A stretch of 64,000 nt of DNA from Porodaedalea pini (taxonomy: Eukaryota; Basidiomycota; Agaricomycetes; Hymenochaetales; Hymenochaetaceae). Both the position numbers and the translations under genes were made by a program. The DNA is taken from NCBI GenBank assembly GCA_002794775.1, contig NBAY01000024.1, forward strand, positions 310,001-374,000, written 5' to 3'. The notes beneath the pieces were generated by a model. The model searched no databases. It was given only the letters and a program-made list of their open reading frames with translations, and had not been told where the DNA came from. Shown piece after piece: positions 14,591 to 47,562 of the stretch (the first letter of the stretch is position 1; every line of letters begins with the position of its first letter).

Positions 14591-14784
14591 CTATTCGTCT
14601 TTCAAAAAGACCAGACCTGTCTCTTCATCCTTCTTCTCTTCAGAGCCCCCACTTTGCTTCTCGAGCAAGTCACCATCTACAAGTACCTCCTGGTTAACGG
14701 TCGGGATGGCTGCCCAGTCCTCCTCATAAGACCACAACTTCCCCACCTGGCCCTTCATTGTTGTTTGGACGAGCACTGCAATCA

Positions 14785-14895
14785 GGCATCACAGGAACTT
14801 GGTTCAGACAGTGACCGATAAGTAGTCAGAATGGATCTTCTCTAGAAGATCCGTTCCGACTACTTTATATTACTCTAACTACTGTACAGTAATGT
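14785..14895. repeat. Left terminal inverted repeat of the KDZ element
   Basis: Starts at 14785 with GGCATCACAGGAACTTGG. It contains GAATGGATC...GATCCGTTC at about 14830-14858, a small stem with a counterpart in the right end, then an ACTACTTTATAT block also found in the right end. Identity fades after about 100 bp. Confidence 0.7.
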
Positions 14896-15377
14896 AAACT
14901 ACTAAGCTATCTATGAACGGTTCTAAGGCGAAACATAAATGTGCAGAAGAGATCAGAAATGGCATGAGATGGAGAGAAAAAAGTGAATGGAACGGATCAG
15001 AGAACGATATCAGCAAAAAAAATGAAAAAAGTGAAGCTGATATAAGTCGCAAAAAGGACTATGTCTTAATGAGATCATGTATGAATGGATCAAAAGGGAA
15101 CTTACTTACAAGGCACACATTGGAGTGCTGAACCATCAAGCCAGCCGGACGGTTCATGTGTAAAGGCCAAAAGGAAGGAAAGAAAATGGTGAGAAAAATG
15201 ACAAGACCAGGAAAAGAACCATTATAGACAGCAGCATCTATTTCCTGTACTTCTTATTCTTCGCTGAGTCTGGTAAATCGAGATTCATACACTGCCTTTT
15301 TGAAATATCAACTTCATTGTCATGCTTTTAAACAAAGAAAAAAAAACTTACGGCTGCTTGATCTTGCGTGCACTTTT

Positions 15378-17189
15378 TCACTGAGTAGTGGCCCCAGTCA
15401 TGTCTTCAGTGCACTGCTTCTTTGTGCTCTGTTGTTGACATTCCTGGTAAGTGTTGCTTGATTCAGCACAACGCTTCTTTGAAGTTTGTGGAGCTTCGGC
15501 GACTTCGCCTGTGACAGCGATTGACCCTGGTGGGTCAACAATACAGTGCGGCTTCTGAGTCAATGCTGGACTTGCCACATGATAAAGAGTGGTGGCCGGA
15601 CTGACTGATTGTGCAGTGGCAGACAGAAATTGAGATTCACCAGGTTCTGTAAATTCTGTAGGTATGTCCAAGGAGCTTGTGAAACCATGCTCGGACTGTA
15701 CTGAATCGACAAGGGGAAGCGAGGCTGAGGAGATTGCAGGACAAACTACATTTGCCGGCATGGGCAGGTCGAGCGCTTCTGCTACGTCTGAGCTGTGATC
15801 TGTCATGATGGATGTTGGGACGTCAGAAGCGGCTGATGGTAGAGCATCTGTGTGCCACACAAGTTCATGGGTAGGTGCTGGGCCAAGAGCAGACTGAAGT
15901 GAGTTTGAAGCCACTTCAGTCTGAGGGTCAGAGAGTGCAGTCTGGTAGTCTGGCTCAGGCGGCGGTGAAGAATCAATTGTGATTCCTTCTTCCTGTTGCA
16001 ATTCAGTCTTGTCAGAAGATGGTGCATGCTCCTGCAAGACGAGGTATGACTTCGTTCCAGCTAAAATATAGGTTTGTTTGAGTAAAGCACATTTCAATTT
16101 TGTGATTAAGGATGCACATTGACCAAATACTTCGGACACAAAAGACTCCCAAGACTTAGTGACTTTGCCTTTTTTGTAAGCTTGGTTATCATAGAAGAAT
16201 TTCCCTTCAAAGCCAGTATGGATTCTGCAGTCGCTGTCAGTGGCTGTAATAGACAGCAATTTATAATTTAAACATACTTGTCAATGATAACTTCGCCGCT
16301 TGGACTTCAAAAGGCAAACTGAAGGTGAAATACAGCGTCTCCAACTGAATAACTATTTCCACGACCACTCAAGCCACTCAGGAGCCATTGCAGCACACTG
16401 GAGGCTTTACACTGATTCCTAATGAAGTCCGAGTCAGAAGAGATACAAAACAACTAAAACAGAACTAACATACTCTTTGACAGTGGTCTCGTCTATACAA
16501 CCGTCACTAGAAACCTTTGCATCTACATTCTCTTCAGCTGCCCGTTTGTCATACTCGGCCTTCTCTCTTTCTGTTAGAGCATTGTACACCTCCTTCTGAA
16601 CAGTGGACGACAGTCCTCGCTTCGTCTTTCCAGGCTCAAGAGCCAAGAGCTTTGCATCAGTATGCTCTTTGATCAGTGCTTTGTTTTCACGAAGAAACAA
16701 AGCTCTACCGGTAATGGTTCGATCTCTGTCAAAGAAGGTGGCGAGTATATTCGAGTCCTTGTCTGACATTCTTCTGTTCGCTAAGGTTGGACAATCGACA
16801 CATTTCTGATTGGAGATCCATCATCTCACTCTCTTTATATTCATAAGCTTTATGAAACGAAGGACTAGTAATTGTGAAATGTACGCTTCTGTGTTTATTC
16901 AGATCTCCTGTAAACCTAAACTCCTTAACGTACTCATTCGCAAGCTCGTTCTTGTATGCTTTAACTTGCGGGTGGTGGGGCTGCTGATGCGGAAGTGAAT
17001 AAAAATGCGGGAGCTTGGAGCTCAACCACATCTTCTGAGCTTCAGTAAAAGGCTCTCGTTTTCCATTCTTGTTGAGCTCAGGATCAAACAGCTCATCTGA
17101 AACAGCATCATCGGCATCTGTTATGACCTGTGCTTCCTTCGCTTGCTTGATGGGAAGCTTCGTCTGCTTCAGCTTCAATTTCGTGGACA
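15378..17189 (-). CDS. Unrecognised cargo gene B inside the KDZ element
   Basis: Minus-strand exons start at ATG 17189 (MSTKLKLKQTKLPIKQ), with a conserved-looking block PFTEAQKMWLSSKLPHFYSL. A Lys/Glu-rich helical region follows (ALFLRENKALIKEHTDAKLL, VYNALTEREKAEYDKRAAEE) that resembles an HMG-box-like or homeodomain-like helix pair without being diagnostic. The C-terminal exon, about 15378-16250, is Ser/Thr/Pro-rich and ends in Lys-rich KKQCTED. Splice sites are clear after about 16915 and at about 16247 (TTACAG acceptor), but the exon or exons between 16260 and 16440 are unresolved and may be broken. The function is unknown; a DNA-binding or transposition-related role is only a guess from position and charge. 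Confidence 0.5.
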
Positions 17190-17289
17190 TCAAGACACTC
17201 TCGGAGTATGGGCAATGTGAATAATGGGTGAAGAGGAGGTCAGGTGCTGAGGTCTCAATTTTTATATAGTATAGTGGCCAAAATCTCAC

Positions 17290-17412
17290 CTTTGAATGCT
17301 TTGTTTCATGACCACGTAGCTGACCACAATTCTTTGGCCTTTGCGTGATCCAAGCGCACTGGCCAGCTGCTCGAGGTGCTTTCTTTCATGGTGGCCACTG
17401 CAATCTACCGTA
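17290..17412 (-). other. Unresolved exon candidate next to the gypsy insertion
   Basis: Between an AG acceptor at 17413 and a GTGAG donor at 17289, two minus-strand frames are open. One reads HHERKHLEQLASALGSRKGQ. The other begins at an ATG in a strong context (GCCACCATG) and reads MKESTSSSWPVRLDHAKAKE. It may be a 3' exon of cargo gene A or a 5' exon of cargo gene B. I cannot decide which. Confidence 0.35.
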
Positions 17413-17505
17413 TTATAGGTTAAGAAAACAAATAACAGAGTGGCAGCGTGATGAACCAATTATCGTGCATGCTTGAGCTTAGCTTGTATGTAGCCAAAGC
17501 GTTCT

Positions 17506-17871
17506 TGTTAGGCGGAAGCCCGGGAGACGGCTCGGACTGGGCAGGCCTCGGCTGACTGTCGTCTGGGACGTGCTATACTCGAGCGTAGACTCGGGACACG
17601 CTTACTCAGGCTAGGTCGTCGCGGAGGTAAGAGGAAAAGCAGAACAAGGAGTTCATGCGATTCCTGAGACCTTATATAGCGACGACCGTGAGACTATATT
17701 ATCTAATATTACATAAAGGGTCAGAATGGAACGAATGAAGGTCGCGTGAATGAAGTGTGGGAAATGATTGGTCAGATGATTAAATATAATGAAAAGGAGC
17801 GATTAAAATAAAAGGAAATGGTAAAAGGGAAAAATAAAGAAAGGGTGAAAGTGAAAGTTCAAGTCCTGACA
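17506..17871 (-). repeat. 3' LTR of gypsy copy 1
   Basis: 366 bp, TG...CA in both directions (plus strand TGTTAGGCGG...CCTGACA). Indistinguishable from the 5' LTR at 23289-23654. Confidence 0.95.
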
Positions 17872-20800
17872 TTACCCCCTCCTCAAGGTTGGGCGTCCCG
17901 ACCAACCAAGATCGCGGTCGTCTGGCTCGGTGTCGACAAAGAGTGGACGGAGTCGTGAGCGAGGGATATCGAGTTTGCGAGGAGCACCGGGGTGTTTGAG
18001 GTAGAATTCAGCAATCGCCTCCTTTGCGTTCTCGCCGAAGTCCGTCTCTGGTTGCCAGGTTGGTTCGTTGTACCCGACCCACTTGACGAGGTACTGTAGT
18101 TTACCTCGGTGCAGACGTGAGTCAATGACCTCTTCAACTTCGTATTCCTCTTCGTTGTTGACGATTTCCGGTGGCGGCGGTGGCGGTAGCTTCTGGCTCT
18201 CAAAGGACGGTTCAACGGCAGGTTTCAGTAGGGCCTCATTGAAGACAGGGTGGACCTTTTTCCATCGTTTGGGGAGCTTGAGCTTGTAGGCACTCGCTCC
18301 TACCTTGTCGACAATGTCGAAGGGACCGTACCATTTGTCGGCAAGCTTCTTCGTGGGTGAATCCGTGCTGATATTTCGTCCGTCGAGGAAGACCTTATCA
18401 CCAGCCTTGTACTCCACCGATGCTCCTGCCGTCCGGTCATGGTAGCGTTTCATGTCTTCTGCTGCCTTGACCAGATTGTCCTTTGCCGCGCGATGGGTCT
18501 CCTTGATGTGCTTCGCGAATTCTTCTGCCGACATGTTGGCAGAGGAAGTTCGTACGGTGTCGAAGCTCCTGGGGTGACGTCCAGTGTTCGCGTAGAAGGG
18601 TGACATCTTTGTCGCCGAATGTTCGCGGTTGTTGTACGCGAACTCTGCGAGAGGGAGCCAGTCCTTCCAGTCCGATTGCCGATGGTCAACGAAGAGTCGG
18701 AGGTATTGTTCGAGCTCTTGGTTGACGCGTTCCGTCTGACCGTCCGTTTGCGGGTGGTATGCCGTTGACGGGTTACCCTCAATGTGTAGGAGTTTGTACA
18801 GCTCCTTCATCATCGATGCGTCGAACTGCGTGCCGCGGTCATGGATGATCTTCTTCGGCAAACCGTGGAGGCGGAAGATATGATCGCGGTACAGCTGGGC
18901 CATGCCTTCTGCTGACAGTCTTGTCGTCGTCGGAATCGCGTGCATCTGCTTCGAGAACCTATCCACGAAGACGCAGATCGCGTTGTGTCCCTTGGAGTCC
19001 GGGAGCTCTCCGATTAGGTCGACCGTGACTATCTCCCAGGGACCTTCAGGGATTGCGTTAGGATGAAGTGGCCTCGACCTCGATGCCCTCAGAGCCTTCG
19101 TCCGTTGGCAACGGTCGCATCCTCGGACGTATGCTCGGACATCGGAGAACATCGACGCCCACCAGAAGTCTCGACGTACCAGTTCGACCGTCTTCGACGA
19201 TCCGGGATGTCCTGCCAGGGTCGAGTCGTGGCACTCCCGCAACACCGCTTCCTTCATCGTCGACGGCACGTACACCTTGCCTTTCATCCGCCACAACCCG
19301 TCGACCTCTACCATATTCGCCGGCCTTTCCGACTCGTCCTGCGCCCTCTGCGCGTCACCCACTCGTTCCAACACTTCCTCCCGAGACGTTCTGACCACTC
19401 CACGATTTAGCCACTTGTCCTTGATGAACACGACGTCGTCGTTGTCATCCTTTCCCTCATCATAGCCTGCTTTGCGCGACAGTAAGTCCGCCTTGCCCAT
19501 CGTCTTCCCCGACTTGTGTTCGAGGTGGAAGTCAAACTCCTCGAGTTCGGTTCGCCAGCGGGCTTGGCGGTAGCTCAGCTTCTGCGCTGACCTGAAGTAG
19601 GTGAGGTTAGCGTGGTCGGACCAGATTTCGATCTTGTGGCGAGCGCCGAGGAGGTATTGTCGCCATTCCTTGAGCGCCGAAACGATCGCGAGCATCTCCT
19701 TGTCGTAGATCTCGTAGTTTCGTTCAGCGGGTAGGAGTGCTTCTGACCTATAGGCAATCACCCTCCACTTCCCTTCCTGCTTCTGTAACAACACACCGCC
19801 GAGCGCAAAGTTTGACGAGTCCGCTTCTACGCGGAAAGGACCCTCGTCGTTGGCGATGGCTAGGACTGGAGGTGAGCAGAGACGTCGTCTCAGCTCCTCG
19901 AACGCCTCCTGCTGTTCGGTCTCCCATACCCAGTCCTTCTTGCCCGTTAACGACGTCAGCGGATGGACCACCTTGCTGTAGTCCTTGATGAACCGTCGCA
20001 ACCAGTTACCCATGCCGAGGAACTGTTGTAGCTGCTTCAGGTTTCGTGGGACCGACCAGTTCGCAATTGCTTCCGTCTTAGCTGGGTCAGCCTTGATCTC
20101 GCCATTACCGATGATGTGGCCGAGGTATTTGACGACCTTGGCGTCAAACTCGCACTTCTCCGGCTTCAGGTACAGGCCATTCTCTCGAAGGATCTGAAGG
20201 ACGCGCCTCGACGTGTCTATATGTTCCTCAATGGTTTCCGAGAGGATCAATATGTCGTCGAGGTATACGATGATCAGGTTAGCGTAAATCAGTTCCTTGA
20301 AGATGTGATTGACAAAAGCCTGGAACGTTGCCGGGGCGTTGCAGAGACCAAAGAACATGACCGTCGGTTCGAAGAGGCCCATGTTTGTGCGAAACGCTGC
20401 CTTCCATTCGTCACCTTCGCGGATTCGGACGTTGTAGTATCCCCAACGAAGGTCAAGTTTAGTGATGTACTTCGCCTTCTTGACCTTGTCAACAAGTTCG
20501 TCGATGAGAGGGAGGGGATACTTATTCTTGATCGTGCCGTCATTGAGTTTACGGTAGTCCTGGATCGGGCGTAGCGACTTGTCGGCCTTCTTGATGAAGA
20601 AGAAGGGCGACGCCATTGGCGATATCGACCGTCGAATGCGACCCGACTTCAGATTTTCGTCGAGGAAGTCCTTGAGTGACTGTTGCTCAGTTGGCGTGAG
20701 CGGATAGATCTTACAGTCGCTTGGTTTGAAGTCAGGCTTCAAGTCGATGACATGGTCCCAGGGTCGGTGTTCCGGCAGTTTCTCGAATCCCTTCTCTGAG

Positions 20801-21550
20801 AAGACGTCGGCGTAATCGTCGAGGTATGCGGGCCAGGACGCCTTGTCCATTCGCACCTCTCTCATCCTCCCCGTCTCTTCCGCCACCTCCAACACCTTCC
20901 GCATGCCGTCCTCTACAGCCTTCTCCACCACACATTCGCTCGGGCAACGAGTGAAGTCGAGCGTCCCTGTTTTCCAGTTGACCTCTGGGTTGTGCCGTCG
21001 AAGCCAGTCGTATCCCAGGAAGATGTTGGACGATGCTAGCGAGGTTACTGCCAGGACGATTTGTTCCTTGTGGTGACCGATCGTAAGTTCAACGTCGACG
21101 TATTCCTCGATTAACCCGGCCTCGTTGTGCGTACCGTCGGCATTGAGTACCGCAAGGGGTCGAATGTAGCGTTTCGTTTCCAACCCGTACCTCTCGACGA
21201 ACCTGATGTCGATGCAGGATCCCGTGCATCCCGAATCCACAAGGGCATGTGCGTCTACCTCCCTCACTTCACCTTCCACGCTGTGTTCGACGTTCAAGAG
21301 AAGGTCCAGCTGGCGTCCGCCAGTTCCTCTCATGAACAGCTGCTCGTACTCCTTACTTTCTTTTACACCGGTGGGGACTTCGTACTCGGGAAAACCATCG
21401 ACGTCTTTGGTATTTACGTATCGTACAGACGGTTGGTTATATTTTAGTGAGTCCGGATTCAAAGTCCCTTGTTCCTCTCGGTCAGTCGTCCCGATGGCTA
21501 CGCCTGACCACTCGCAAAACCCTGCGAGTCGACGACCTCTTCGTCATTCT
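17872..21550 (-). CDS. pol: Pol polyprotein (PR-RT-RH-IN-chromodomain), gypsy copy 1
   Basis: The pol frame opens after a TGA at about 21549 and runs to TAA at 17872-17874; it lies in -1 relative to gag. Domains in order: aspartic protease (ALVDSGCTGSCID), reverse transcriptase (IQDYRKLNDGTIKNKYPLP; catalytic YLDD at about 20242-20268), RNase H (FRVEADSSNFALGG; YEIYDKEML), and integrase. The integrase has an HHCC finger (HDSTLAGHPGSSKT...CDRCQ) and DDE core (VTVDLIGELPDS; HDRGTQFDASMMKE; AYHPQTDGQTERVNQELE). A chromodomain follows (EVEEVIDSRLHRGKLQYLVK, then WVGYNEPTWQPE). There are no internal stops over about 1200 residues, so it is potentially functional. The chromodomain probably directs integration to heterochromatin, as known for chromoviruses. 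Confidence 0.95.
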
Positions 21551-22577
21551 CTTCTTCTTCCACATAGTCCTCCACCATCGACCTCCGAGTGTCTACGACT
21601 TCCTCGAAGGCCGATTCCTTCATCGCGCCGAGTTCGTCCGCGAGGATGCGACGCTCGCCTGGTGCCATTAGCTCCAGCATGCGCTGGATGATCGGCTTCC
21701 CCTGCGGGCACTTGTCCTTGAAATGGCCCAGCCCGCCGCAGATCCAGCACGCGCGTCGTCGTTGCGCCTCGTTCATTGAGACGTCCATCGGTTGACCAGC
21801 GCCTCCGAACGTGACGCCGGTCGCGTCGCGTTTGTCGACGTGCGGGGCTGCAACTTGGCGCCGAGCGGGGGGTGCCTGTTGTTGTTGACGAGGTTGAGGT
21901 ATGAACGGACGGCCTCGTTGGATCGCTCGGATCTGCTGTTCGCCACGATCGATCTCGATAGCCTTGTTCTTCCATGCCTCATACGTTGTTGGCACGGGCG
22001 TCGACCTCAGCACGCCGCGGACTACCTCGATGTTCATTGCTCGCTTGAGACGATCGCAGATGACGCTGTCGTCCTTCAGTTCTGCCCGCTTGATGATGAC
22101 GTCGAGTTGTTGGAAGAATTTATCCGCGGTGAGGTCCTTCTGAACCTTCTCCCGGAAATCCTTCAGCGCCGCTTCCTTTCGATTCGGGTCGTCGAACGAG
22201 GCGTCGAGTCGTTCCTGGAATCTATCCCAGCTGTCCGTGAAGGTGACAACTCCCGACGTTGTCGATTCCTCGACGTAGTTCTGCGCCCACGTTGCCGCAT
22301 TACCACCCTTCAGGTAGGAGAGAGCTACGTAAATTTTGCTTTCCGACGTAGGGTATCGGTTTGGGTTCGCGGACACGAAAAGGAGGACTTCTCGTCTGAA
22401 GTCGAGGTAATCGTCGCCGCCAGTGAATTCACGTGGCCGGGCGACGTCTATGTTGGGGGTCGGGGGGTTAGCGGCTGCGACCGGTGCTGGGGCGTTGTTC
22501 GCCTGATGGGCGAAGGCATTCGCAACGATGGCCGCGATCTGCGCCATTTGCTGTTGGCTGAAACCTTCTGCTGACAT
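21498..22577 (-). CDS. gag: Gag polyprotein, gypsy copy 1
   Basis: 359 residues from ATG 22577. The central region (DYLDFRREVLLFVSANPNRY, YLKGGNAATWAQNYVEE, FFQQLDVIIKRAELKDD) is the retrotransposon Gag capsid fold. A single CCHC zinc knuckle, CWICGGLGHFKDKC, lies near residue 285, followed by an acidic tail. It forms the virus-like particle and binds element RNA. About 711 nt of leader separate it from the LTR. Its 3' end overlaps pol by about 50 nt. Confidence 0.95.
   Translation of the reverse strand: MSAEGFSQQQMAQIAAIVANAFAHQANNAPAPVAAANPPTPNIDVARPREFTGGDDYLDFRREVLLFVSANPNRYPTSESKIYVALSYLKGGNAATWAQNYVEESTTSGVVTFTDSWDRFQERLDASFDDPNRKEAALKDFREKVQKDLTADKFFQQLDVIIKRAELKDDSVICDRLKRAMNIEVVRGVLRSTPVPTTYEAWKNKAIEIDRGEQQIRAIQRGRPFIPQPRQQQQAPPARRQVAAPHVDKRDATGVTFGGAGQPMDVSMNEAQRRRACWICGGLGHFKDKCPQGKPIIQRMLELMAPGERRILADELGAMKESAFEEVVDTRRSMVEDYVEEEENDEEVVDSQGFASGQA
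21516..21522 (-). promoter_or_regulatory. -1 ribosomal frameshift site, gag-pol overlap (copy 1)
   Basis: On the sense strand the gag codons CAG GGT TTT contain the canonical slippery heptamer G-GGT-TTT. Slipping back one base enters the pol frame (GGG TTT TGC GAG), which is open from there to its end. The gag stop TAG lies downstream at 21498-21500. Confidence 0.7.
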
Positions 22578-23276
22578 CGCGGGTTCGGGTGCGGGTGTCG
22601 AAGGTTCTGGGGGAGTCGGCGGTGAGGGGTCTCTGTTAGTCTCGCGGTAAGGACCTGGGGTCGGTGGTAGGTTGACCGTAGATGTTGACGGTGCGGGTGA
22701 CGACGGAGCGGCTGGGGGCCACCTTGCTCTCCTTCCTCGTTCGTCTGATGAATACCAGCTGCGTCGGATTTCACTCCACCAGATGTCGTGAGTGACGCCA
22801 CTATTATTGGTCGCGACGTAGCCTGGTCGGTCTGGATCCCAACGGGCTGAAGCAGGAAGGGCCCGTTGCTGTTCGTCGGTGAGATCTATCTTGACGTTGG
22901 CGGAGGGACAGGGATCGGTTGCGCGTTCAATCCGGGGTTACGCCAACGTTGAGCGGGTTCGTCAGCAAAGTTGATGACGAGGCGGTAGGATCCGAGTGAG
23001 ATTACAAACGAGATCGTCGTTGAAGTTTGGACTCGTCTAGTTACCCACGTCCACGTCAGGTGCGTGCTCCACCAGAGGCTAATCCGTAGAGCCAGGGTCG
23101 GGAAAGGTCGGGTGTGGGTTTACGTAATACACGAACGTCCGAAAACGTCCGGGCAGGGTTGAGGGTTTGTCGTTTAGGGGTTTTTACACGTCAAGTCCGT
23201 CGAGGGGAGCGCTCCTCTAGACCGAGTGAAGGCGAGTCGACAGCGACGACGTACGCTGGGGATGAGCCTGGGTGGG

Positions 23277-23287
23277 GTTCTGCTTTT
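23277..23287 (-). other. Primer-binding site, apparently self-priming (gypsy copy 1)
   Basis: On the sense strand the sequence one base inside the 5' LTR is AAAAGCAGAAC. It does not begin with TGG as expected for a tRNA 3' end. It is an exact 11-nt complement of GTTCTGCTTTT at the predicted 5' end of the element's own RNA, as in the Tf1 family. Confidence 0.65.
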
Positions 23288-23288
23288 A

Positions 23289-23654
23289 TGTTAGGCGGAA
23301 GCCCGGGAGACGGCTCGGACTGGGCAGGCCTCGGCTGACTGTCGTCTGGGACGTGCTATACTCGAGCGTAGACTCGGGACACGCTTACTCAGGCTAGGTC
23401 GTCGCGGAGGTAAGAGGAAAAGCAGAACAAGGAGTTCATGCGATTCCTGAGACCTTATATAGCGACGACCGTGAGACTATATTATCTAATATTACATAAA
23501 GGGTCAGAATGGAACGAATGAAGGTCGCGTGAATGAAGTGTGGGAAATGATTGGTCAGATGATTAAATATAATGAAAAGGAGCGATTAAAATAAAAGGAA
23601 ATGGTAAAAGGGAAAAATAAAGAAAGGGTGAAAGTGAAAGTTCAAGTCCTGACA
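23289..23654 (-). repeat. 5' LTR of gypsy copy 1, with promoter
   Basis: 366 bp. On the element's sense strand it contains TATATAA (23461 down to 23455). GTTCTGCTTTT begins at 23428, 33 nt from the first T of TATATAA, and is the predicted RNA start. That 11-mer is complementary to the primer-binding site just inside the LTR. Confidence 0.9.
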
Positions 23655-24931
23655 GTTCTTCTGTAACAATTAAAGCATAGACAATGAACAAATGCCAGCT
23701 ATATCAGGGACCAAAGCATACACGAAAAGAGGAGAGCATTACAGGCCTTCATGGTGCTCCAGGCGACATACAAAAGTCATATGTGTATATTCTATGCATG
23801 TTCTACTCACCGAGGCGTTCCTTCTTCACGACTGTCTTGTCCATTCCTTTGTCCATTGTGACTGAACGTTTGCGCTTCTTCGCCAGAGGGCTGGATGAGA
23901 GCATTCCGTCTTCCTTGTCAGAAGAGCTCACATAGATGATTGGAATCTTGGATGGTCCGGCTGCCCCATTGCTGTTTGACGTTGAGGCAGTGGGCCTGAG
24001 CTGAGGTTTAGTCTTCATTGCCGTATTAAACTCATGAAGGAAAGTTTGTGGAGTCGGCGGGGAAGAGCTACCAAGGTCCGAAAATGATGTGGTGGTACAT
24101 TTGATAGGGTGGGGAGTTACCTTCAGGCGCATTGCTGATGCCTTTCCTTTCATTTTTGGCATTTCCACTTCCACAGCGTATTTACGGAGCGGAGAAGACT
24201 GGGGGCGGCAATGTGCCACAATCGCGCCTTTCGACACCTTATATGCTGGAGACGACTTCGAGACACGGCCGCTTTGAGGAGAGTCGGCCATGGAGTCAGA
24301 GTTGGAGTTGGAGTGAAGAGGGGATTGATACACCTCTGATGCTCTCCTTGCCAATATTTCCTCCATCTTGCGATGGAATGCAGTAGGAATTAGGTCCTTC
24401 AAAAGTTTTGCATTTGCTTTGTGCTCCTTCTTGCCGATAATCACAGGAGGATCCGATGTTAGGAATTCCTTGATGCAAGCGACTTTCGTAATGTCATTCA
24501 TTTGCATGCTAAATTGCTCCAGGTGAAGCTGGCCTCGCACTTTGCACTGTGAAGAATAAGACATGGTCCTGAATCGTAGAATAGAGACCACATACGTGCA
24601 GGTAGAGTACACCTATATTCAATCTGTTCGTTTCTCCTTTGCATAGATGGACCTCGTGCACATTCTTACAGCCACGCTTGTGGTGGGCTTGGACCTTGGT
24701 TGTGAATGCAAGCCCAATGTCCTGCCTGGGAGGCAGGTGCGCTCGCAGAATCCGCGAGACGCGAATGTCAGCGTTGTGAGATGGGAGTGATGTAGTAGGA
24801 TAGATGAGCATTTTTGCAATGAAGAGCGATTTGTCATCAGCAAGTTGCTCGTGTTTTAACAGAACACATGCTACGCACCTACAAGACCACTTAGACTTCT
24901 TTTGTGTGAGGAATGGCCTCAAATCGACCAC

Positions 24932-26178
24932 ACTAGAGCCTCAGCAACACACCACTTCATCTCTTCCCATTCGTGTTACAAAGTTTGTCGGCTGCAAACA
25001 CGTTAAACTGATCTAAAGCAAAGTATGTTAATTCTCTTGAGCAGAGGAGAATGAACGTACTTCAAGATCCATACGCAAGCCAGTCAATTAATTGTAGAGC
25101 CCAACAATATGAGTATCAGAAGGATCCTCCTAACTCAATTATGACAAAAGACAACCCCTTCAACAAATCTACTTGGAACGTGCTGTCTACTTCATCATTG
25201 TCATGTGTGCATTTCTCTTTTCCCAAATGTGAGGTACAATTAATTAATTTACTTGTTGTACTAAACAGTGTGGTTGGAGGGGAGCACTGGTCAGTGCGTG
25301 GCCACTGGGCCGGGGCGATGGTGGTAATGGAGAGTCGGAAAGGCACACCTCGGAGTCGCCCGAGTGCTTTTGTTCGCACCGATTGTGGGAACTGCTTACC
25401 TTGAACTGTACACCAGAGCTTATCAATGCATCACATGCTTATAGGCTAAACAAAATTGCTTCCGCTAGGAAGTTGTTTCCCACAATCGGCACAAACAAAA
25501 GCACTCAGGCGACCCCGGGGCACGCCTTTCTGACTCTCCATCACCACCACCGCCCTGGCCACACGTTGCCCACATTGTTGCCCGCCGTCTTCATCCCTGC
25601 ACTCTTTGTGGCTATCTATTGTTTCGTCTTTTCATCTCTCTGCATTCTTTGTCCTTGACACAGCTTTCTGCACAAGACCACGCGACACAATTGGATCAAG
25701 TAGGTGATCTGTCCATACATGCCGCTCCAATATCTGAGCTTTCTTTCTAGCTGCCTGACGTACTTAATCGAGTACGACCCAGCAAGGAATAGGAACTGTG
25801 ACAGCAAGCACTTTTTTTTTCATTTATCCTTCATTTGTCTTCCAGTGAGCACGCCCCGCAATCCACAGGTCACAATACCATCGAGCTCAGAATCCACAAG
25901 AGTATTTTCCTACGCTTTTGCCATAGCATGCTCAAGTGAGATCGTCAAGCAGATCAGATCGTACATGCTTTCAAATTTCTGTGTTTCTGTTTCCTTAGCT
26001 TCGCCCGTATTCATTGTTATACTGTAGATTTCGTGTCAGTAGGTAGAGCTTTGTATAGCGTAGACATGTAGACTAGATGAAATTATTTGCAAGAAATCTA
26101 GGAAGCAAGACTCCTTAACAAGGTGAATTTGCACCTACAGAAGTACTTAGAGAATTGAAACATAAAATAAAAATTCAG
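24932..26178. other. Intergenic between divergent cargo genes
   Basis: No gene is supported. The region is the shared upstream side of cargo gene A (minus) and the Spt5-like gene (plus) and includes the imperfect inverted repeat at 25300-25561. Confidence 0.4.
25300..25561. repeat. Large imperfect inverted repeat
   Basis: The arm at about 25300-25391 and the inverted arm at about 25475-25561 match over roughly 88 nt. They share AACAAAAGCACTC and GACTCTCCAT, with most mismatches being transitions, and flank an 83-nt AT-rich loop. The GC-rich arms stand out from their surroundings. It could be a small decayed palindromic transposon or a promoter hairpin between the two divergent genes. Confidence 0.6.
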
Positions 26179-29100
26179 ATGGCCGAAAGCGACATGCGTA
26201 CACTTGTGGAATCATTTCTCGATAAGGAGGCAATGGTCTTTGATGACGATGAGGACAGCATGTTCGACGGCAATGAAGGTATGAGTTTATTCATTCCTGT
26301 GGTATGATAACTCACAAAGTATTCAAACAGATAACTCATTCATTGATGATGATGTCCCATCAACTGCTACTTTGGCCTCATCATCTCGAATCACATTGGA
26401 TACTGGAGCTACGGAAGATCTTGAGGGTATTGCAGAGAGGTTTAGGAAGCGTGCACGTACTGGTCCTGCCCCTTATGATCTTTCCAAGGAGAGCCACCCT
26501 GCTCTTCGATCTATTCAGAAGACCAGCCATTTTCCTCCCAACATGGGAATCGACGACTCCAAGTACAAGTTACTGATGGTTTGTGTTGCTGTGCGTATTG
26601 TATTCTTTATTATCTTGTTATTTGATTTCTATATTGTTTGAAAGCCCAGGAAGGAGATGAGATCTGCTGCTTTTGCTCAGATTTGGCTTCCAGACGACTG
26701 CTTGGCATTCGCTGTGATGGGTCTTCCTGGATGAATATACATATGGGCTCCGAATGCAAAGGTTATTCACGATTCATACGTCGCTCGTGGCATCATGTTG
26801 TCACATCGCAGTCTTTTGTTTGTTCCATTCGGTGATGTCAATTCGGTATTTGAGTGTTGGGATGGACAGAATATCAGGAAATTTGAAGTTGGGAACTGGG
26901 TCTCAATTCATCGAGGGACTTATCGTAATGACTTTGCCATCATGTGCGAAGTGTTGGACAGTGATGCACTGAAGCTAGCCATCGTACCGCGCATACCGAC
27001 AAAGAGTGGTGCTAAGTTGAAACGTGCCAAACGCGCTCTCGTAACACCTGGACAATTAGCTGCTCAATTTCTGGAGGAAAAAACAAATATTCGCATCATT
27101 TCAGCCAGTCACTTTAAATTTTGCAGGGCGGACTATGTGGATAACTTGTGCATTCTTACCGTACCCTGCTTGCATTCCATTCGATGAGCTTCGCCATCTT
27201 TACATGATGTCTTTTTATTTTCTCATACAGATCTTGGCGACCTTGAGGATGTAGAATTCTACGTTCGGTGTGGGGACAGCATTGTAGTCGTTTCTGGTCC
27301 ATTTCAGACAATGGCTGGCATAGTCACAACCCTTAATTGTTAGGACCCCAAGTGCGCATTCTCTATTTCCCTTTCTTTTTTATCGTCTTCATCATCTCCA
27401 ACGTCCCCTTCCTCCCTCTCCCCACTGGACTCTGTCTGTCATCACTCCTTTCACTGATGTCGCCCATTTGCTGATCGTGTGACCCTTGCATGTGGTCGCG
27501 GGTGACGTTGACCGCTTGTTAGTAAGAACATTCCATGACATTCCATGACATTCCATGACATTCCATTTCCCAGGAACGTCATCCTCTTTATAGTAGTTAG
27601 GTCTCACAAGCACTGAGTATATAGGTAGCTCGTTCGCCTGTATTATCCCTCACCTCAGTATTCTTGGAATCTACTGCTGCTTGCTCTTGATAATGTCGTC
27701 CACGACGCTTGTGTGTTTGACTCCTCCCCTCTTCACTCTTGTGTCTGTGGGCGTGGTGGTCGCTTGGACGGCGCCCACTATTGTTCTCCCATGTCACTTG
27801 ACCTCTGCCCACATCGTATGTGGGTATGATGGTTAAGTGATTGTTGAGTACGTGGTCATACTCTAACATTAATGATGAGTCAGTTGTACTTGGTAATGTC
27901 TGTCACATAGACAGTCTTTTGGTTGGCATGTCAGACGAGGAGATTGAGAACACTGGGCTTGAGTTTCTGGCTTCTCGTGGAAAAGTTCAGGATCTTCAGG
28001 ATTCAGAGCCTGTATTGCAGGACATTACTGTATCTCAGAAAGCTATTCATCAACTCTTCGATATTGGCGACAACATTACCATGAAAGCAGGCCCACGTTC
28101 AGGATTGTCAGGCTTCATTGTGACGATCGAAAAAAAAAGGATATCATTGTTTTTAGACGAACACGAGGATTTAGTATGCATTATCTATCTTGATTATGAA
28201 TTTTGTACTGATATGAATATTTATTAAACACTAGCTGAATATTCGATCAAACTGGGTTGAAACTACAGATGTGATGAACAGTAGGATTCTGCGCAAAGCC
28301 GGGATTTGCCCTTTGGTTTATGGTGCTAGCGTCATTGTAAAGGATGGATGATTCAAAGGCCATAGGGGTTTCGTCTTACAGGTCAATTCTGATGTCGTAT
28401 GAGTGCGGGTGTTCAAATCCTTACAACAAACAGTACGACTTTTAATTGGTTCACAATCGTGAAACTGACCTCCTTCTCTGCTAAGCTTGAACTTCCCTTG
28501 TACTCTGTCGAGGAATGCTCGCGTGATGACACGGTGAAGAATAAGATAAGGGACCTCTTCGCGTATGAACAGGAGGCGTGCAACCCATATGTTGGTGCGT
28601 ATGTGCTGATCCGGGGGCTTGACGGAAAGGCGAAGTACGCGAAGGGGTTTCGTGGCTATGTCTTGAGCATTGATGGGACCACGAAGACTGCGCAAGTCTC
28701 ATATGGTAACAATAACAAAGTCGAGATGCTGCCCCTAAAGAATCTGATCTCCGTGTATGTCTTTGCTGCTTTTGTTGTACTTTCTCATCGATTCACCACA
28801 TATCGGACCATGGACCATATCACGTGCTTGGATCTGCAGTATCCATTAAGCATTACTGAGCGAAAAGAGTACACAGAGCACTTTAAGGAGACACAAAACA
28901 TCACACAACATCTGCATTCACTGACTCCACCACCTCCATCAGGCTCTTCAAGCTCTGATGCCTGGGCTGTACAGCCTGACAAAATGTACGATGTGGAAGC
29001 ATTACTACCTGTTTCGGGTAAGAAATAAATGGAATTATTAAAACCTTGTACTGATGAACCCGAAGATTATTCGGGACCAGGAATGTGTATATTCTCGCCT

Positions 29101-29499
29101 GCCATCCAGGTGAGATTTTCGACACATAAGCTTCATGTCAAAGTCTGGTCAAAGGATAGATGCAGAACAATCATCGTCGGTGCCTCAATTGGCGATCACG
29201 CAGACTGCACCTCGTCGCATGGTCGATGTCGCGTCAACATTGATGTGGACACTGGTCATGGCATTTTGTCTTTGCTTTTGCATGTGTCTGACTTGACTAC
29301 ACATCCGCCCATGAGGAAAGGCGAGCTTGTTATACAGATCAGAGCCCTCCTTGAAGTAGATGTTGGTAGAATTCTTCAGGTTGTTGCACTGCCCCGAGCG
29401 AGAGATGGACCGAAGAAAGTTACTGTCTGCATTCCGGGGGACAAAAAAAGGCATTGGGACAAGCTTAGCTCAAATGTCACGATGGTTGAACCAATTTAA
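26179..29499 (+). pseudogene. Spt5-like (NGN/KOW) transcription-elongation protein, broken
   Basis: The start is ATG 26179, an acidic N-terminus (DDDEDSMFDGNE) as in Spt5, with a clear intron at 26279-26330. An NGN-like domain follows (IYIWAPNAKVIHDSYVARGI, LLFVPFGDVNSVFECW), then KOW modules (VGNWVSIHRGTYRNDFAIM; ITMKAGPRSGLSGFI; YGASVIVKDG-x-FKGHRGFV; GAYVLIRGLDGKAKYAKGFR). The C-terminus reads KKVTVCIPGDKKRHWDKLSS and stops at 29497-29499. Lesions are TGA at 26732-26734 where an NGN tryptophan is expected, TGA at 28349-28351 in a KOW, and a solo LTR at 27338-27868. Splice sites near 27190 and 28230 are uncertain. Spt5 normally binds RNA polymerase II. This extra copy inside a transposon is cargo. 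Confidence 0.75.
27338..27868. mobile_element. Solo LTR inserted in the Spt5-like gene
   Basis: 531 bp beginning TGTTAG and ending CTAACA, flanked by the 5-bp duplication TTAAT (27333-27337 and 27869-27873). It contains a 12-bp tandem run (ACATTCCATGAC repeated about 3.5 times, near 27526-27568). Skipping it and one TTAAT joins IVTTLN to DESVVLGNV in frame. It is not the same LTR family as the two gypsy elements here, though it begins similarly. Confidence 0.85.
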
Positions 29500-29722
29500 G
29501 AATGAAGGGTAAGCAGTTCAATAAATTCTATGCCGTACATTCTGCTAAGCAACACAATTCAGTGCTCCATTCTCTATACACACCCTTTAGACAAGCATTG
29601 TAACTTATTGTTAATATATATGATGTTAGGGCCCTAGAATGATCACAGGAAAAAAAAAAAGAATAGCTACAAGGTATTTCATCTGACCATCAGCGCTCGT
29701 TCTTTACTATTGTTCTCTCGCT

Positions 29723-32700
29723 ATGCCTTCAATTTGTCTGCTGCAAATTGACCCGGTTCTCGTCCATGAGCATGATACTGACAGCAGCGACAGCAGCTAT
29801 ACTAGTGACAGTGACAGCGAAGACGACGAGCCTATCGGTGGTCCATCACCGAGGTCGAGCATCACTGTCTCCGAAGGATGGAAATGCATAAATCAGGCGA
29901 GTCGAGCAGTTATTTTATTGATCAGAATACTGATTAGCTTCAAGACAGAGCAAGCCTGAGTCATGGAGCACAGTTGAGCAAGAGCAACAGGTGGCATCAG
30001 CCAAAGAGACAATAACAGTGAGTAGCCATCATTCGTATCATTAACGGACATTCAGCTGATTCTAGTTGAGGTGGAGAAATCAGAATGGGATGACAAAGAA
30101 AATTGAGAAGATAGTGAAGATGAGGACTCAGAGTTCATGGTGAGCAAAGAACCTGTCTTCATGGGACGCCTACTGATAGACAACCAGCTGCAATCTGCAG
30201 AAAATCTACTCTCGAGCTTTGCAGATTATAAATGTAAGATTCAAGACCATATTATGGACATGGAGTATGACCCTAAGGTGGGAACCGCGTGCGGGTGTAA
30301 CAGACCCGCCAAGATACATTTATACCGCTGTGCTGACTGTGTGCATGCCAATGTCATCTGCGATGAGTGTCTGTTAGACCGCCATGTCTATTGTCCTTTC
30401 CATTGGGTGGAAGGTTGGACTGGTGCATACTTCGAGTGCTTAGATTTCTCTATACTAGGTCTCAAGGTCTTTTTGGGTCACTGTGGCCTCAAATGCCCAT
30501 CGATGATGTCTGGTGGCTACAATCTTTCAGTAGCGGATGCAAATGGCATTCACAAATGCCAAGTTGTATACTGCACATGTGCAGGAAGGGATGAGGCCAT
30601 GCTACAGTTAATAAGTTATGGTCTATTTCCTGTGTCTGTAAAACACCCTAAAGTAGCATTCACATTTAATGCCCTTTGAGACTTCCATACCCATACAACT
30701 GTGTCGAAAAAATCTGCATATGACTACATGATCGGCCTCCAAAAGAAAACCAATAACTTTCTCCCTTCCGAAGTAAAGGTATGTACATTACTTTGGGAAC
30801 ATTGATCTTAGAATAACATTCGGTGTCCAGGTACCTAGCCAACAATTCATTTGTATTGCACATTACTGGCGATTTCTACTCGCCGAGTGAAGGAGCGGTC
30901 AGCTTCACAAAGTTGATGATGCATTGCTTGCTCATCCATGCGATTCGTTCGCAGTCGTCTGTCTTGCATGTCCCATTCCTGGCTTCAATACAGATCATGA
31001 ACTTAGCCCACAGTAAGTGTTACAAGAATTGTTCAAATGATACTTATTCTTATTGGTGTTCTGGGAAGCTACAAAAATCAGAAGAATATCTCAGTGGATG
31101 CAAACTTTCATCTCATCAGATTGAATAAGAAAAACAATCTATGTGAGAGGGCATTGTGGGACGGCCATGGATACATCAGAAAACAAGAAGGACTTGATGC
31201 ACATATTAAGAAGTATAAGGCATTCACGGAAGAGGTACATGTTCACGCAGTAACTTAAGATTCAATTCTTACGGAACAATAGAAATCTACTTGCTCAAAA
31301 TTCCAAGCCATCGAGAATGCAAATATGCTAAAGCACCATGGCCAAAATGCGAGTGGACTAGTCATGGTTCTATGTAGGCATGGGCTTGGTGAGCCCAAAG
31401 GAGCAGTGAATCTGCAATATGGTGAAAGGTGAATCAATATGACTACCACACAGCCGCAAAAAAAGTATTAAACTTGCATTAGACATGTCAACGTAGACTA
31501 TGTGCTTGCAGATGTGCTAAAGGGCAAAGACCACATTAAACGGCTCATTCTTTCATACAATATCGGCTGTCAGTATTCCATCAAACTTGTCAAGCGTTTC
31601 GAAGAATGTTTTCCTGAGGCTGTGGATATGGTCCGTGACATGAAGGTTCTTGTTGGCAAGCTGCATCTGTTTGGTCACATTGAGTCATGTCAGTATGGAT
31701 TTTCATTAAATTATACTACTGGCGTCAGCTGCACTGATGGTGAAGAAGTTGAGCGTTGGTGGTCAGAAGCCAATCAAGTTGCTGGGAGTACAAAACAAAT
31801 GGGACCGGGCCATCATTGTGATACGCTGGATGATATTATTGGTGCATGGAACTGGACGAAGTTAGAATTCATGGGTATGTCTAGTGAAATTCCAAAGATT
31901 ATATAACAATAACTTAAACACGTACAACTCAGCTCGGACACTTGCTAAGTGCTATACAAAGGCACAGGAGACTTACAAAAGAGTAAAGCTCAACTTTGAT
32001 TCTTCAGATGCAAGTATGCGGCGTATCTACGGGGAAAGGCTCGTCAAGAAGTGGGAGGGCATGGACATGGCACCTTATAAGGATGAGAAGGGCGAATGGG
32101 ACAGTGTTTATCGACCTAAGCTTTCTTGTACATCTGTGATCTCATTCTTTGTAAGGATGTGCAGATGATGAGCTTAGCCTCTCATCGACATCAGAGCCAG
32201 TGCTTGTGCTTCCAAAGTAATCAGCTGAGTCTATATGCTAGATCCATCACAAGCTAAAGTGCTTGAGAGTGAGGCTCTGCAGCTGGGGAATGGGCATCAC
32301 ACAAAGGCAAGAGGGAAGCTTGCTATTTTTTTAAGCTTTGGTATGACTCTCCAGTTTCGGCAGTGAGATATTTATCAATGCTTTCATTTTTACATCTAAC
32401 TTCTGTTATACAGACGCGAATTGATGTCCAAGAAAGGAGGCCCACCTACCAAAGCCTCTCTCACCAGCTACGAATGTGATAAGAATATCTTTTGTTCCCG
32501 GCAAATGCTGTTCATGCCCGCTCTACGAGATTTCTTAGAGGAGCACAGGAAAGATGGCTTTGAAGAAAACATCTGGCTTCCATCCTCATTTTTGAAAGCT
32601 GACCATGTTACTTATGAGCTGGTTGAACTTGCCAAGATAGAGTACAAATTACGAGAAGGCGAGGCATATGATACTCTCCACAAATTGAAGTCGGTGCTTC

Positions 32701-33418
32701 GTGAACAAAGCTTTCTAGAGAGTCTGCACAGCAAATACGGGCATGGAAAGCAAAGTAACACACGGACTGCACTGGCTCGAAAGCAAGCTGGTGACAAGAA
32801 GCGGAAATGGGCTAGCGAGTACAAAATGATGCGTGCTGCGCTTGTTGCTCTTGGATTGGATGAAGTAAAATCTCATCTCTGTCCATTGAAAGATGAAGAT
32901 ATGTATTGTCCATCAATCACTGATCCTCATGAACTTGGCTCAGGGAGAAAGACTGATGGGTGGGTCTGGAAAATGGGTCGTAAAGAAAAAGACTCTGAGG
33001 ACTGGGTAAAAGAAGGTGTATTTGCTCATCTTGATGTATGCACCAAGAGCTAATATTACTCTAGAGGACCGTGTTCTGTGGTTTCGTTCATGAGCATCAT
33101 GCGATCGATGGCATGAAGAACTCATTATACTCAAGGAAGAATTTAGAAGACTGATATGTGGCTTTGAGGCAATGTCAGGGATGTGGGCTTCAGCAGCTTC
33201 ACTGATGTGAACTGATGATGCACTAGGCCCTTCCGTATATGCCACTCACAAATCATTCATCTATCATGCCATGTCTGACCATGCCCAAAAGCTCCTTACT
33301 AAAATAGTTGTGCCTTCTACAGAAAAAATTCCTATCATCGCAGCCACAGTTTCTAATGAAGCCAATTCAATGATGAAGCGCAAACAGTCTCCCTCAAAGC
33401 AGCCTCAGAAACGAGGTA
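29723..33418 (+). pseudogene. KDZ transposase, decayed
   Basis: The start is ATG 29723 with an acidic Ser/Asp stretch. A CxC2-type cysteine cluster follows at 30280-30610 (CGCNRPAKIHLYRCADCVHA, CDECLLDRHVYCPFHWVEGW, LGHCGLKCP, ADANGIHKCQVVYC). The KDZ catalytic core is at 31350-31880 (CRHGLGEPKGAVNLQYGER; SYNIGCQYSIKL; GHIESCQYGFSLNYTTGVS; DGEEVERWWSEANQVAGSTK; MGPGHHCDTLDDIIGAWNW), then a Lys-rich C-terminal region to about 33418. It spans many introns. In-frame stops where the family reads through include TGA at 30677-30679 (NAL-x-DFHTHT) and TGA near 30890 (FLLAE-x-RSGQLH). It would have mobilised the surrounding element but is now dead. Confidence 0.85.
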
Positions 33419-33440
33419 TTTTATTTCTTTTTAATAATTA

Positions 33441-34289
33441 CAGCCTTTTTCATAAGTCCTGCGACACGTGCATGTCACGTGAAATGAGCTGTGTCAGAGA
33501 CAAAGTGTCAAAAAATTAGAATGAATGCCTATTTTCTCTGTGAATTCTGCACAGTACCTGCTCATTAAGTACTCAAAAAAAAGGCATGGTTCTCAGGAGA
33601 AGAAATATGTAAAATAGGGAGCAATAAATTGACTGTGTAGGCAGGTGGAGATCAAACAAGTGCAGCTGGTCTGTTCTCTCACCCATATCCACTGAGATTC
33701 AAAAATTATGGCTCCCCTACATCTACCTATAAAATTCTTTCCTGTATCTGTAAATTAAGTATATGACTATACCAACATCTCCTGAAAGTTTGAAGCCAAT
33801 CCATTCAGTATTCATGGTGCAGCAGCAAGATTTGTGTTCTACTCTGCAAGACCTGTTGTGAGAAAAGGAGGGTGGAAAGAGCTTGAAGTAGAACACAAAT
33901 CTTGCTGCTGCACCATGAATACTGAATGGATTGGCTTCAAACTTGCAGGAGATGTTGGTATAGTCATATACTTAATTTATAGACACAGGAAAGAATTTTA
34001 TAGGTAGATGTAGGGGAGCCATAATTTTTGAATCTCAGTGGATATGGGTGAGAGAACAGACCAGCTGCACTTGTTTGATCTCCACCTGCCTACACAGTCA
34101 ATTTATTGCTCCCTATTTTACATATTTCTTCTCCTGAGAACCATGCCTTTTTTTTGAGTACTTAATGAGCAGGTACTGTGCAGAATTCACAGAGAAAATA
34201 GGCATTCATTCTAATTTTTCGACACTTTGTCTCTGACGTGGCTCATTTCACGTGACATGCACGTGTCGCAGGACTTATGAAAAAGGCTG
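33441..34289. mobile_element. Palindromic TA-inserted element (foldback MITE), copy 1
   Basis: 849 bp, almost entirely one inverted repeat: arms of about 400 bp around a loop of about 40 bp near 33860. Ends are CAGCCTTTTTCATAAGTC and its inverse; TA flanks both sides (33439-33440, 34290-34291), as for Tc1/mariner-type insertion. It has no coding capacity. The loop lies in the opposite orientation to copies 2 and 3. It sits near the right end of the KDZ element. Confidence 0.9.
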
Positions 34290-34494
34290 TAACATACACA
34301 AATTGATCGTTCTTTCGTAGCACACAAGTAGTGTGCATGGCCGGTGAACTCTTATCAGTTCAGTAACATATACATTAATGTACTTTTTGTTATCCTGAAC
34401 TGATCCCCATGAATGAATCTTAATGTCTTTTGCTATTTGCAGCAAGTCTAAGTGTGGCTCAGGTTTGAACTGTTCATCACTTGCAAATGTATTC

Positions 34495-34605
34495 TTTATA
34501 AGGCAGTAAACTACTTTATATATACATATGCCAAATGGATCTGTGGCTGATCCATTCTAACCGAAAACCAATTGTTTGACTGAACCAAGCTCCTGTGAAG
34601 TTACC
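34495..34605. repeat. Right terminal inverted repeat of the KDZ element
   Basis: Read on the minus strand from 34605 it begins GGTAACTTCACAGGAGCTTG. It then has GAATGGATC...GATCCATTT and a TATATAAAGTAGTTTAC block, matching the left end imperfectly. The host gene's codons resume immediately outside it, after the target duplication. Confidence 0.7.
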
Positions 34606-36207
34606 TGCAATGACCATAGCAGGGGAAGCCATAAACATCACGAAGAAGCCCACATTCACGAAGGTGCATTTCATGTATCCAGCCGCAGACAGGGCAGCAA
34701 TACCAATGAATGAGCTGCACAGCACAATGAAGGACATCACAAAGTAAGGCCGGCAGAAGGTCTCAAGTCTTCGGTATGGGACGCGAAACCTGACTGTGTC
34801 CCTAAGCACCAGCGGCTCGTAGTCGTCAGGAAGGGAGTTGGCATAATTGAAATGGAGGAGAATGGAGAGGATGGACATGGAGATGGACAAGCAGGGGGCA
34901 CTAAGAAAGATGCTCTCCCACTGAATAATAATGCTTTGTCCTTTTGCATGCAAGCCAAGAGCGAGGGTCTTGGTTGGTAATTTGATGGCAAGCGCTATCC
35001 ACATGGAAATCACAGACAGACCCTAAGTATAGAGTCAGATAGCGGAAAATATATATAGAAGAAGCGAAGTCTAACAAAGATTATAGCCAACCAGAACCAA
35101 AACCTGAACTTGACTTTCGAGTTTGTAAACGTGTGACTGTAGAACATGAGGAAGTAGCTCAAGTATACAATGAGCACCACTGCAGGATGTTCAAGCCAGA
35201 GTGCTGAAAAGGCGACAAGAGCACCTAGGACCATGAAGAGAGAGGGTAGAATAGAACCAATGGTTTTCACTTTCCGATGTGTGATAACTGTCTCTACGGA
35301 GTCATGATGCTTCAGGCATTATATCTATAACATAAGGATGGAGGGGTAACTGACTGCCTTCATTGTTTCGTATGACAGTGCACACGTAGATCCCGCTGAG
35401 CATTAGCATCATCTTGAATAATAGAACTAGCATCAGTGTGGAAAACATCACACTGAAATAACTTTAATCTTACAACAGACATGAACATTGTGATCAGAAT
35501 GAAAATTGTGCAGAGATAGAATGTATTCAACTGCAGTGCTTGCGCCACGTCGTTCAGTAGCTCGGGCACCACATACAAAGTGGTTAAGAGGATAGCACAG
35601 GAGGCGATGCCGAATATCTTCAAGTTCAGCAACTTGGAGCAGCATGACTTCTTCACATCATAGTTGCCGGTCTCGCTTTTGCTTCCACCTTCGTCATTAT
35701 CACAGAGTGGAATGCGTTGGACTGCCTTCCAAAACTATCATACCCGACCAAGAAATGAGATCAGAATTATCAGAAACATCGTGACATTACAGACCTGCAA
35801 GGAAGAAGAGCTTGCAGTGTAGAATACAACAATGCAAGGTACGACAGCTAGACAGCAACTAGCAAGTTCTTTGAGGACCCTCAGGGCAAAATGAAACATG
35901 GTGGAGGGTATCAGAAAGAGGGGGGAGACGGGGGGAGGGCAACAGCGAGGCAGTGACTCGGACTCAGATTCCAACTGTACATGGACCAGTTTGTACTCCG
36001 CTTGATGATCTAATTTTACCAATGAGCTTCAGATAAGGTGCGTGAAGGCTTTGCACACTCTGTACATGTCTCACCTGCCTGTTGTAACCAAATGGGACAA
36101 TGTCGTGCTGACACTCGAGTTGCAGTCCTTCCATGGTGCAAAGAGAAAGCGTGTGAAGACAACATCAAGGAGCACAGTGGACACAAGCGTGTGTTTCCTC
36201 TCCTTCC

Positions 36208-43640: not shown

Positions 43641-43644
43641 CTTA

Positions 43645-46283: not shown

Positions 46284-46441
46284 GGTGGAGGATATTGGAA
46301 AGGGGGCAACAGCGAGGCTTCTCTTGCAGTGCTACCTATGTATCAATTTATACTCCACTTGATGACCCGGTTTTACAAATGGCCTACATCAGGAAAAACC
46401 TCCTGCTCAGAAACCCTTAGAAAGTTATTAGAATTGTAGTA

Positions 46442-47280: not shown

Positions 47281-47562
47281 TAAATTGTAGAATCTTTGGA
47301 ATGTTATGAGAATGCAGTCCAAAAATTAGAAAACTTGTAGAATTTCATGGAAAACTGTCCAAGTTTTGGAATTGAACAGAATCAGCAGCTTGAAATTTAG
47401 AATATGGATAGAAAAATGACACACCTCATAGATTCTATGGAATTTTGTAGAATAAAAAACTGGTTGTGGAATTCATTAGATTCTGCCATGGCTTGACACA
47501 AGTGCAGGTACTAGATTGGCTTCTTGGACCTATACTGGGACCCATGAACTATCTGCAGATTA

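Follow-up and report, generated by a model that had tools for sequence, protein, structure and literature searches.

In the stretch of Porodaedalea pini DNA analysed here (the window, 64,000 nucleotides at C24:310001-374000), a predicted membrane-protein gene is split by an insert of 19,822 bp, which is one KDZ-superfamily DNA transposon. Our searches covered the whole genome of this fungus (53.27 Mb, 201 contigs), and copies of the element are named below after their contigs (C1, C2, C76 and so on), the window copy being C24. The transposon, nested insertions included, occupies 14783..34604 on the plus strand, with ends conserved in eight paired copies, and lies between two perfectly matching copies of the 7-bp target-site duplication CTGCAAT, at 14776..14782 and 34605..34611. 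The aligned portions of the host gene lie on the minus strand, its downstream part at 14602..14782 and its upstream part at 34612..35923, both placed by alignment to an uninterrupted paralogue (44816..46306, minus strand) that serves as the empty-site reference. With 14782 joined to 34612 in silico and one copy of the duplication kept, the minus strand over the junction reads ...FFVMFMASPAMVIAVLVQTTMKGQVGKLWSYEEDW..., the host protein across the joined flanks is MASPAMVIA|VLVQTTMKGQVGKLW, and about 1.5 kb of the reconstructed site can be aligned with the paralogue at 76-77% identity, gap-free at the junction. A preliminary description of this DNA had proposed a precise split of the host gene, and this match between the joined flanks and the intact paralogue bears it out. 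A genome search with 34780-35500 returned two matches only, the query stretch itself and the paralogue.

The ends of the element were placed where conservation between copies stops, which gave CAGGCATCACAGG as the conserved left end and ...GTGAA(G/T)TT(A/G)C as the conserved right end. Whether the genome was searched with either end or with the inverted repeat common to both, paired ends turned up at eight places, namely C24, C1, C3, C21, C76, C38, C54, and C46, which account for 16 of the 20 pattern matches, leaving four unpaired (C31, C38:90 kb, C36, and C72); a reversed-pattern control for the ends gave no match in the genome. The unpaired matches on C36 and C72 are without the end sequence and resemble a duplicated stretch of other DNA. 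Each of the eight copies begins with 5' CA, finishes with TAC or TGC at its 3' end, carries an inverted repeat of 19 bp that is set 6 bp in from either end and has at most two mismatches, and matches the transposase gene (KDZ and CxC2), a gene termed M, and a divergent SPT5 paralogue. The repeat stands at 14789..14807 (plus strand) in the window copy, where CAGGCA is followed by TCACAGGAACTTGGTTCAG, and at 34580..34598 (minus strand), where GTAACT is followed by TCACAGGAGCTTGGTTCAG. The inverted repeat containing TCACAGGA(A/G)CTTGG that had been described earlier is real, 19 bp long, and reads TCACAGGARCTTGGTTCAG; the termini had been read as starting with GG(C/T)A, and the element instead starts with CAGGCA and finishes with GTTAC. 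The uninterrupted copies measure 12,345 bp (C21), 12,333 bp (C76), and 12,349 bp (C54), in agreement with the earlier estimate of about 12.3 kb before nesting, and subtraction of the nested insertions from the window copy leaves about 12.8 kb. Exact boundaries had been thought to be rarely available for such elements; here eight copies display the conserved ends.

Among exact lengths of 4 to 10 bp, a perfect 7-bp duplication flanks five of the eight copies (C24, C3, C21, C54, and C46), that of C21 being situated in a T run, and none of the eight shows an exact flank match at any other length in this range. An 8-bp duplication with one mismatch, as first proposed, was rejected, since none of the eight copies matches at 8 bp and the window sites are a perfect CTGCAAT/CTGCAAT pair. 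Certain copies speak against our reading: the flanks of C1 match at 7 bp only after a shift of one base, and C76 and C38, two of the eight, have no target duplication and share a left flank. That left flank is 99.95% identical over 2,002 bp and the right flanks are unlike each other; therefore at least one of the two is probably a recombinant or rearranged copy. The unmatched flanks of these sister copies, together with the two further repeats nested inside the insert, would fit an alternative in which a rearrangement between repeats parted the gene halves and the intervening DNA is a patchwork, and we regard this as extremely improbable against a perfect duplication, paired termini, a gap-free empty site, and colinear sister copies. 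The preliminary description had staked its view that everything between the gene halves is one KDZ element on the joint recurrence of the termini, and the genome-wide search shows that they do co-occur elsewhere, recurring as pairs at the eight places. The word "composite" does not apply to this transposon in its usual sense, and the four cargo genes once attributed to it reduce to a pair of conserved passenger genes that accompany the transposase; a nested Gypsy element and a palindromic repeat are also present.

Comparative gene finding yielded three genes in the element, candidate models being scored by how well their codons are conserved in the divergent copies C1, C24, and C46. Models based on C76 superseded those based on C54, because an intron had been placed round a CGA-to-TGA stop in the C54 passenger gene S, and the window coordinates of M, S, and the transposase gene T are projections from the C76 models. 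T (29723..33348, plus strand, 941 amino acids in C76) encodes a transposase with a CxC2 zinc cluster and a KDZ domain; the KDZ domain (PF18758) scored 3.2e-54 in the C54 model and 5.7e-45 in the window copy (C24:341088-341852), and the CxC2 cluster 8e-30 and 2.3e-18 (window 30107-30679), respectively. A last exon of three bases predicted for T at 34329 is not trusted. M (15238..24811, minus strand, 805 amino acids in C76) is a passenger without a clear family, interrupted in the window by the Gypsy element. The HMG box model matched five of seven members of M weakly, below its cut-off (best E 0.008), comparison of M with solved structures gave a single match at E 0.5, and a single-sequence fold of the HMG-box-like stretch was of low confidence (predicted local distance difference test score 45). 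S (26179..29499, plus strand, 743 amino acids in C76) is the SPT5 paralogue, with NGN-like and KOW regions, and was recovered in the window as pieces parted by a stop; its C76 model omits part of the NGN start that is visible in the exon alignment, and further predicted introns are possibly wrong. The window copy of the element is broken, with 3 stop codons in M, 5 in S, and 5 in T, 5 of these 13 being CGA-to-TGA changes. Exclusion of codons whose bases are non-adjacent in the other copy lowers the count for S to 4, and some of its stops may lie inside mis-modelled introns.

The identity of S was supported by several lines of comparison. KOW was found in three stretches of the C76 model (9.8e-15), and KOW5_SPT5 scored above its curated cut-off (8.4e-8), with the KOW2 and KOW4 models below theirs. 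Against an exon of the genome's own SPT5, BLASTP gave 1e-14 with 70 of 307 positions identical (23%). A profile built from seven S exons, host SPT5 excluded, found SPT5 among solved structures (5.3e-11), and all 13 structure matches at E <= 1e-3 were SPT5, one of them named as the Spt4p partner. A single-sequence search of solved structures with S gave no match at E <= 1, and a search for homologous proteins gave none among 7,996 scored candidates. The NGN-like region aligns to host SPT5 and partly to solved SPT5 structures, and the NGN start PGKE is preserved in the C1 and C2 copies of S, as in host SPT5. Judged by these comparisons, S is a divergent SPT5 homologue. The host gene (C24:294683-294919, locus L057) is the genome's only Spt5-NGN match; S aligns with it from the NGN start PGKE via KOW1 and a linker to a later KOW, and differs from it in its 23% identity, in a shorter NGN-like region, and in its C-terminal repeats, of which none were noticed by eye in modelled S, whereas the host locus seems to show their start at the edge of the stretch read. 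Host SPT5 lies on the same contig as the window element, about 30 kb to its left, which is probably a coincidence.

The KDZ domain and the N-terminal CxC cysteine cluster (CxC2) place the element in the KDZ superfamily. According to Kojima (2025; PMC12730594), Kyakuja elements make 7-bp target duplications, and Zisupton and Dileera, of the same superfamily, differ by their 8-bp duplications, a length found at none of our eight copies. The duplication length is informative because 7 bp separates Kyakuja from these two branches, and by this feature the element is likely a Kyakuja-like KDZ transposon. Two reported features speak against the assignment, since the same source gives Kyakuja termini as 5'-CA..TG-3' and without terminal inverted repeats; our 3' ends are TAC or TGC, and 19-bp inverted repeats are present in eight of eight copies. 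Both the TAC in place of TG and the inverted repeats would suit a KDZ transposon outside Kyakuja, in a separate 7-bp lineage with CAGGCA...GTTAC ends, an assignment that deserves consideration as the less probable one, Kyakuja being the best fit of the three named branches by its 7-bp duplication and 5' CA. Kyakuja elements of Agaricomycotina, e.g., Kyakuja-1_LB (PMC12730594), share with our Kyakuja-like element a KDZ transposase, 7-bp duplications, 5' CA, and an extra cargo gene; ours differs in having an SPT5 paralogue and M as cargo, a 3' TAC, and the 19-bp inverted repeats. Cryptococcus KDZ1-3 (PMC12810828) likewise belong to the KDZ superfamily, measure about 9-11 kb, and include insertion into a gene, and are unlike our element in having 8-bp duplications (4-8 bp for KDZ2/KDZ3), terminal repeats of 139-241 bp, and a CxC1 cluster in place of CxC2. 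Two further reports describe intact KDZ elements of Pleurotus ostreatus that are all preceded by CxC2, as here (PMC7641404), and KDZ elements in the mushroom genome of Marasmius oreades, as here (PMC8290104); a supplementary figure of the latter shows the end motifs of KDZ and Plavaka elements, and ends like ours may already appear there. Related KDZ elements carry a TET/JBP dioxygenase, proposed to be anti-methylation cargo (PMC12730594). Such cargo was rejected for the present genome, in which the sole TET/JBP match fell below the cut-off.

Our overall reading, to which we assign a probability of roughly 0.6, is that of one KDZ transposon, likely of the Kyakuja type, carrying an SPT5 paralogue and M that are predicted to serve its own expression or mobility. 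KDZ transposases have an RNase-H fold and move their elements by cut and paste, as T, a member of this family, would do. The S protein would join RNA polymerase II via its NGN-like domain and nascent RNA via its KOW domains, and would carry transcription across an element of 12 kb that is presumably methylated and repressed. The C-terminal repeats of SPT5 recruit termination and processing factors, and S, in whose model no such repeats were noticed, may be free of the host's control over elongation and termination. M has a weak HMG-box-like stretch and may be a DNA-binding or DNA-bending protein. By analogy, we infer that the SPT5 paralogue would favour the element's transcription in the face of silencing, much as plasmid-borne NusG paralogues are proposed to antiterminate long tra operons (PMC7593976). 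These paralogues and RfaH (PMC7593976) resemble S in that a mobile element has its own copy of a NusG/Spt5 elongation factor; they are bacterial and work with another polymerase, which makes the likeness a functional analogy and not membership.

The distribution of S across the genome was assessed by merging matches within 8 kb into loci, giving counts that are lower bounds since 64 of 123 candidates were scored, and counting as two loci the C45 S gene, seemingly split by a large insertion. There are at least 28 S loci. For 21 of the 28, a KDZ domain lies no more than 10 kb away, where chance would predict about 2% per locus. Seen from the other side, S lies within 10 kb of 21 of the 53 KDZ loci and is absent within 10 kb of the remaining 32, so S is not a general requirement of KDZ elements. 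The gene order in the window subfamily is M(-), S(+), T(+). A search for a 7-bp duplication plus inverted ends identified an element of another subfamily on C2 (437375-449830), with ATGTTTA present twice, ends CAGGCA and GTTAC, and the order M(-), S(-), T(+), in which S is inverted. The observed score was reached in 1 of 60 shuffles, and support for the C2 ends therefore comes in addition from CAGGCA and GTTAC, shared with the window subfamily. On C46, a left end of the C2-type subfamily is CAGGAA and not CAGGCA. S is about 60% identical between the subfamilies and occurs in two orientations relative to T.

Comparison of C76 with C1, C24, and C46 gave ratios of nonsynonymous to synonymous substitution (dN/dS) that were lowest in T (0.106-0.125), higher in S (0.147-0.178), and highest in M (0.262-0.280), values biased low by the selection of gene models for codon conservation, and at the level of codon comparison this shows purifying selection on M, S, and T between subfamilies. 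In the same comparisons, dS was 0.32-0.49 for M and 0.84-1.29 for S and T, and the two to four times lower dS of M is perhaps due to module exchange between subfamilies. The bias in dN/dS is one of a number of points that weigh against our reading. Comparison of C76 with the close copies C3, C54, C21, and C38 gave a dN/dS of 0.30-0.83, from data dominated by CpG decay; the gene models were computed from comparison, without transcripts. On M, DUF5068 (four of seven members, best E 0.0023) beats the HMG box and is itself under its cut-off. The Pfam NGN model matched host SPT5 only across the genome, with no match to S, and RNA polymerase II binding by S is unproven because of this miss. Finally, 7 of the 28 S loci lie more than 10 kb from any KDZ domain, six of them more than 40 kb (L061 at C7:318500-326500, C1:2296 kb, C1:2568 kb, C107:34 kb, C3:919 kb, and C25:238 kb); therefore, S also occurs outside these elements. 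The C7 gene is nearly full-length, and the whole-genome search found no KDZ domain on that contig. Such KDZ-less SPT5-like genes may be remnants, parts of other element types, or host-adopted copies. These 7 loci, and the 32 KDZ loci without S within 10 kb, are also what one would see if S and M were accidental captures that hitch-hike on the transposon with no role for it, a possibility to which we give little credence, as S has been retained in subfamilies about 60% identical in this gene and in two orientations relative to T, with a dN/dS of 0.15-0.18 between them.

The differences between near copies are dominated by changes of one kind. Of the changes between C76 and C54 over 12,331 bases, 226 are transitions, 7 are transversions, and 215 are CpG-type, and the pattern is the same for C21 (278 transitions, 11 transversions, 255 CpG-type) and C38 (229, 5, and 210, respectively). 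Among changes private to one of five copies, 566 of 776, summed by hand, are C-to-T or G-to-A in CpG. This decay between near copies suggests recent movement followed by decay through a methylation-type process, so the copies have apparently moved recently and have been decaying in this way since. The mostly CpG C-to-T differences between recent copies (C76, C54, C21, C38, and C3) also point to methylation-linked mutation in this fungus. Between the C38 and C76 elements, 234 of 12,325 bases are different, as against about 1 in 2,002 in their common left flank, and gene conversion could explain part of this contrast.

The strong CpG decay bears on what S might do, as it suggests a methylation-type defence against the copies. 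S could act on silencing itself, by interfering with or decoying small-RNA or chromatin silencing recruited via host SPT5, for which the plant SPT5-like factor of RNA-directed DNA methylation is a model. The homology of S, however, spans the NGN/KOW core, and this core of SPT5 binds polymerase and RNA. The proposed anti-methylation TET/JBP genes of related elements (PMC12730594), with one sub-cut-off match in this genome, lend the silencing-directed role some further plausibility. We consider this role unlikely, although far from negligible, and prefer a role for S in promoting transcription of the element.

The broadest form of this idea is that eukaryotic cut-and-paste transposons of an entire lineage encode a captured SPT5 of their own for reading through silencing. 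This would be the eukaryotic counterpart of the plasmid NusG-type antiterminators and an alternative to the TET/JBP genes that sister KDZ elements carry; we put it forward tentatively, at somewhat less than even odds. If true, it would amount to a second, transcription-based escape from silencing, beside the anti-methylation TET/JBP of those sister elements. The question is testable in one genome, with 21 of 53 KDZ loci having S nearby and 32 not, and the conserved ends and the 7-bp duplication of a large KDZ lineage are now defined, together with a clean empty site. Our literature searches showed no SPT5 cargo in KDZ elements, and an earlier mention may exist. In the accessible portions of the texts, the word KOW is absent from PMC12730594, Spt5 and KOW are absent from PMC12810828, "transpos" and "KDZ" are both absent from PMC13289920, and no SPT5 cargo is mentioned for the KDZ elements of Pleurotus (PMC7641404) or M. 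oreades (PMC8290104).

Two repeats are nested in the window copy. The first, a Gypsy long terminal repeat (LTR) retrotransposon on the minus strand (17506..23654; LTRs at 17506-17871 and 23289-23654), lies inside the span of gene M, encodes a chromodomain integrase, and is flanked by the 5-bp duplication GTTCT at 17501-17505 and 23655-23659, its ends having been read by eye. The second is a palindromic (fold-back) repeat of 855 bp at 33438..34292, whose arms of 406 nt differ by 7 mismatches. This near-perfect palindromic repeat has three copies in the window (33438-34292, 43642-44448, and 46440-47283), one inside the transposon and the other two next to the intact paralogue. Another Gypsy retrotransposon, at 36620-41692, adjoins the split gene, its domains distributed over five open frames. 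Elsewhere in the window, open frames at 8492-10202 with EF-hand and PI-PLC-X domains likely form a single phosphoinositide phospholipase C gene.

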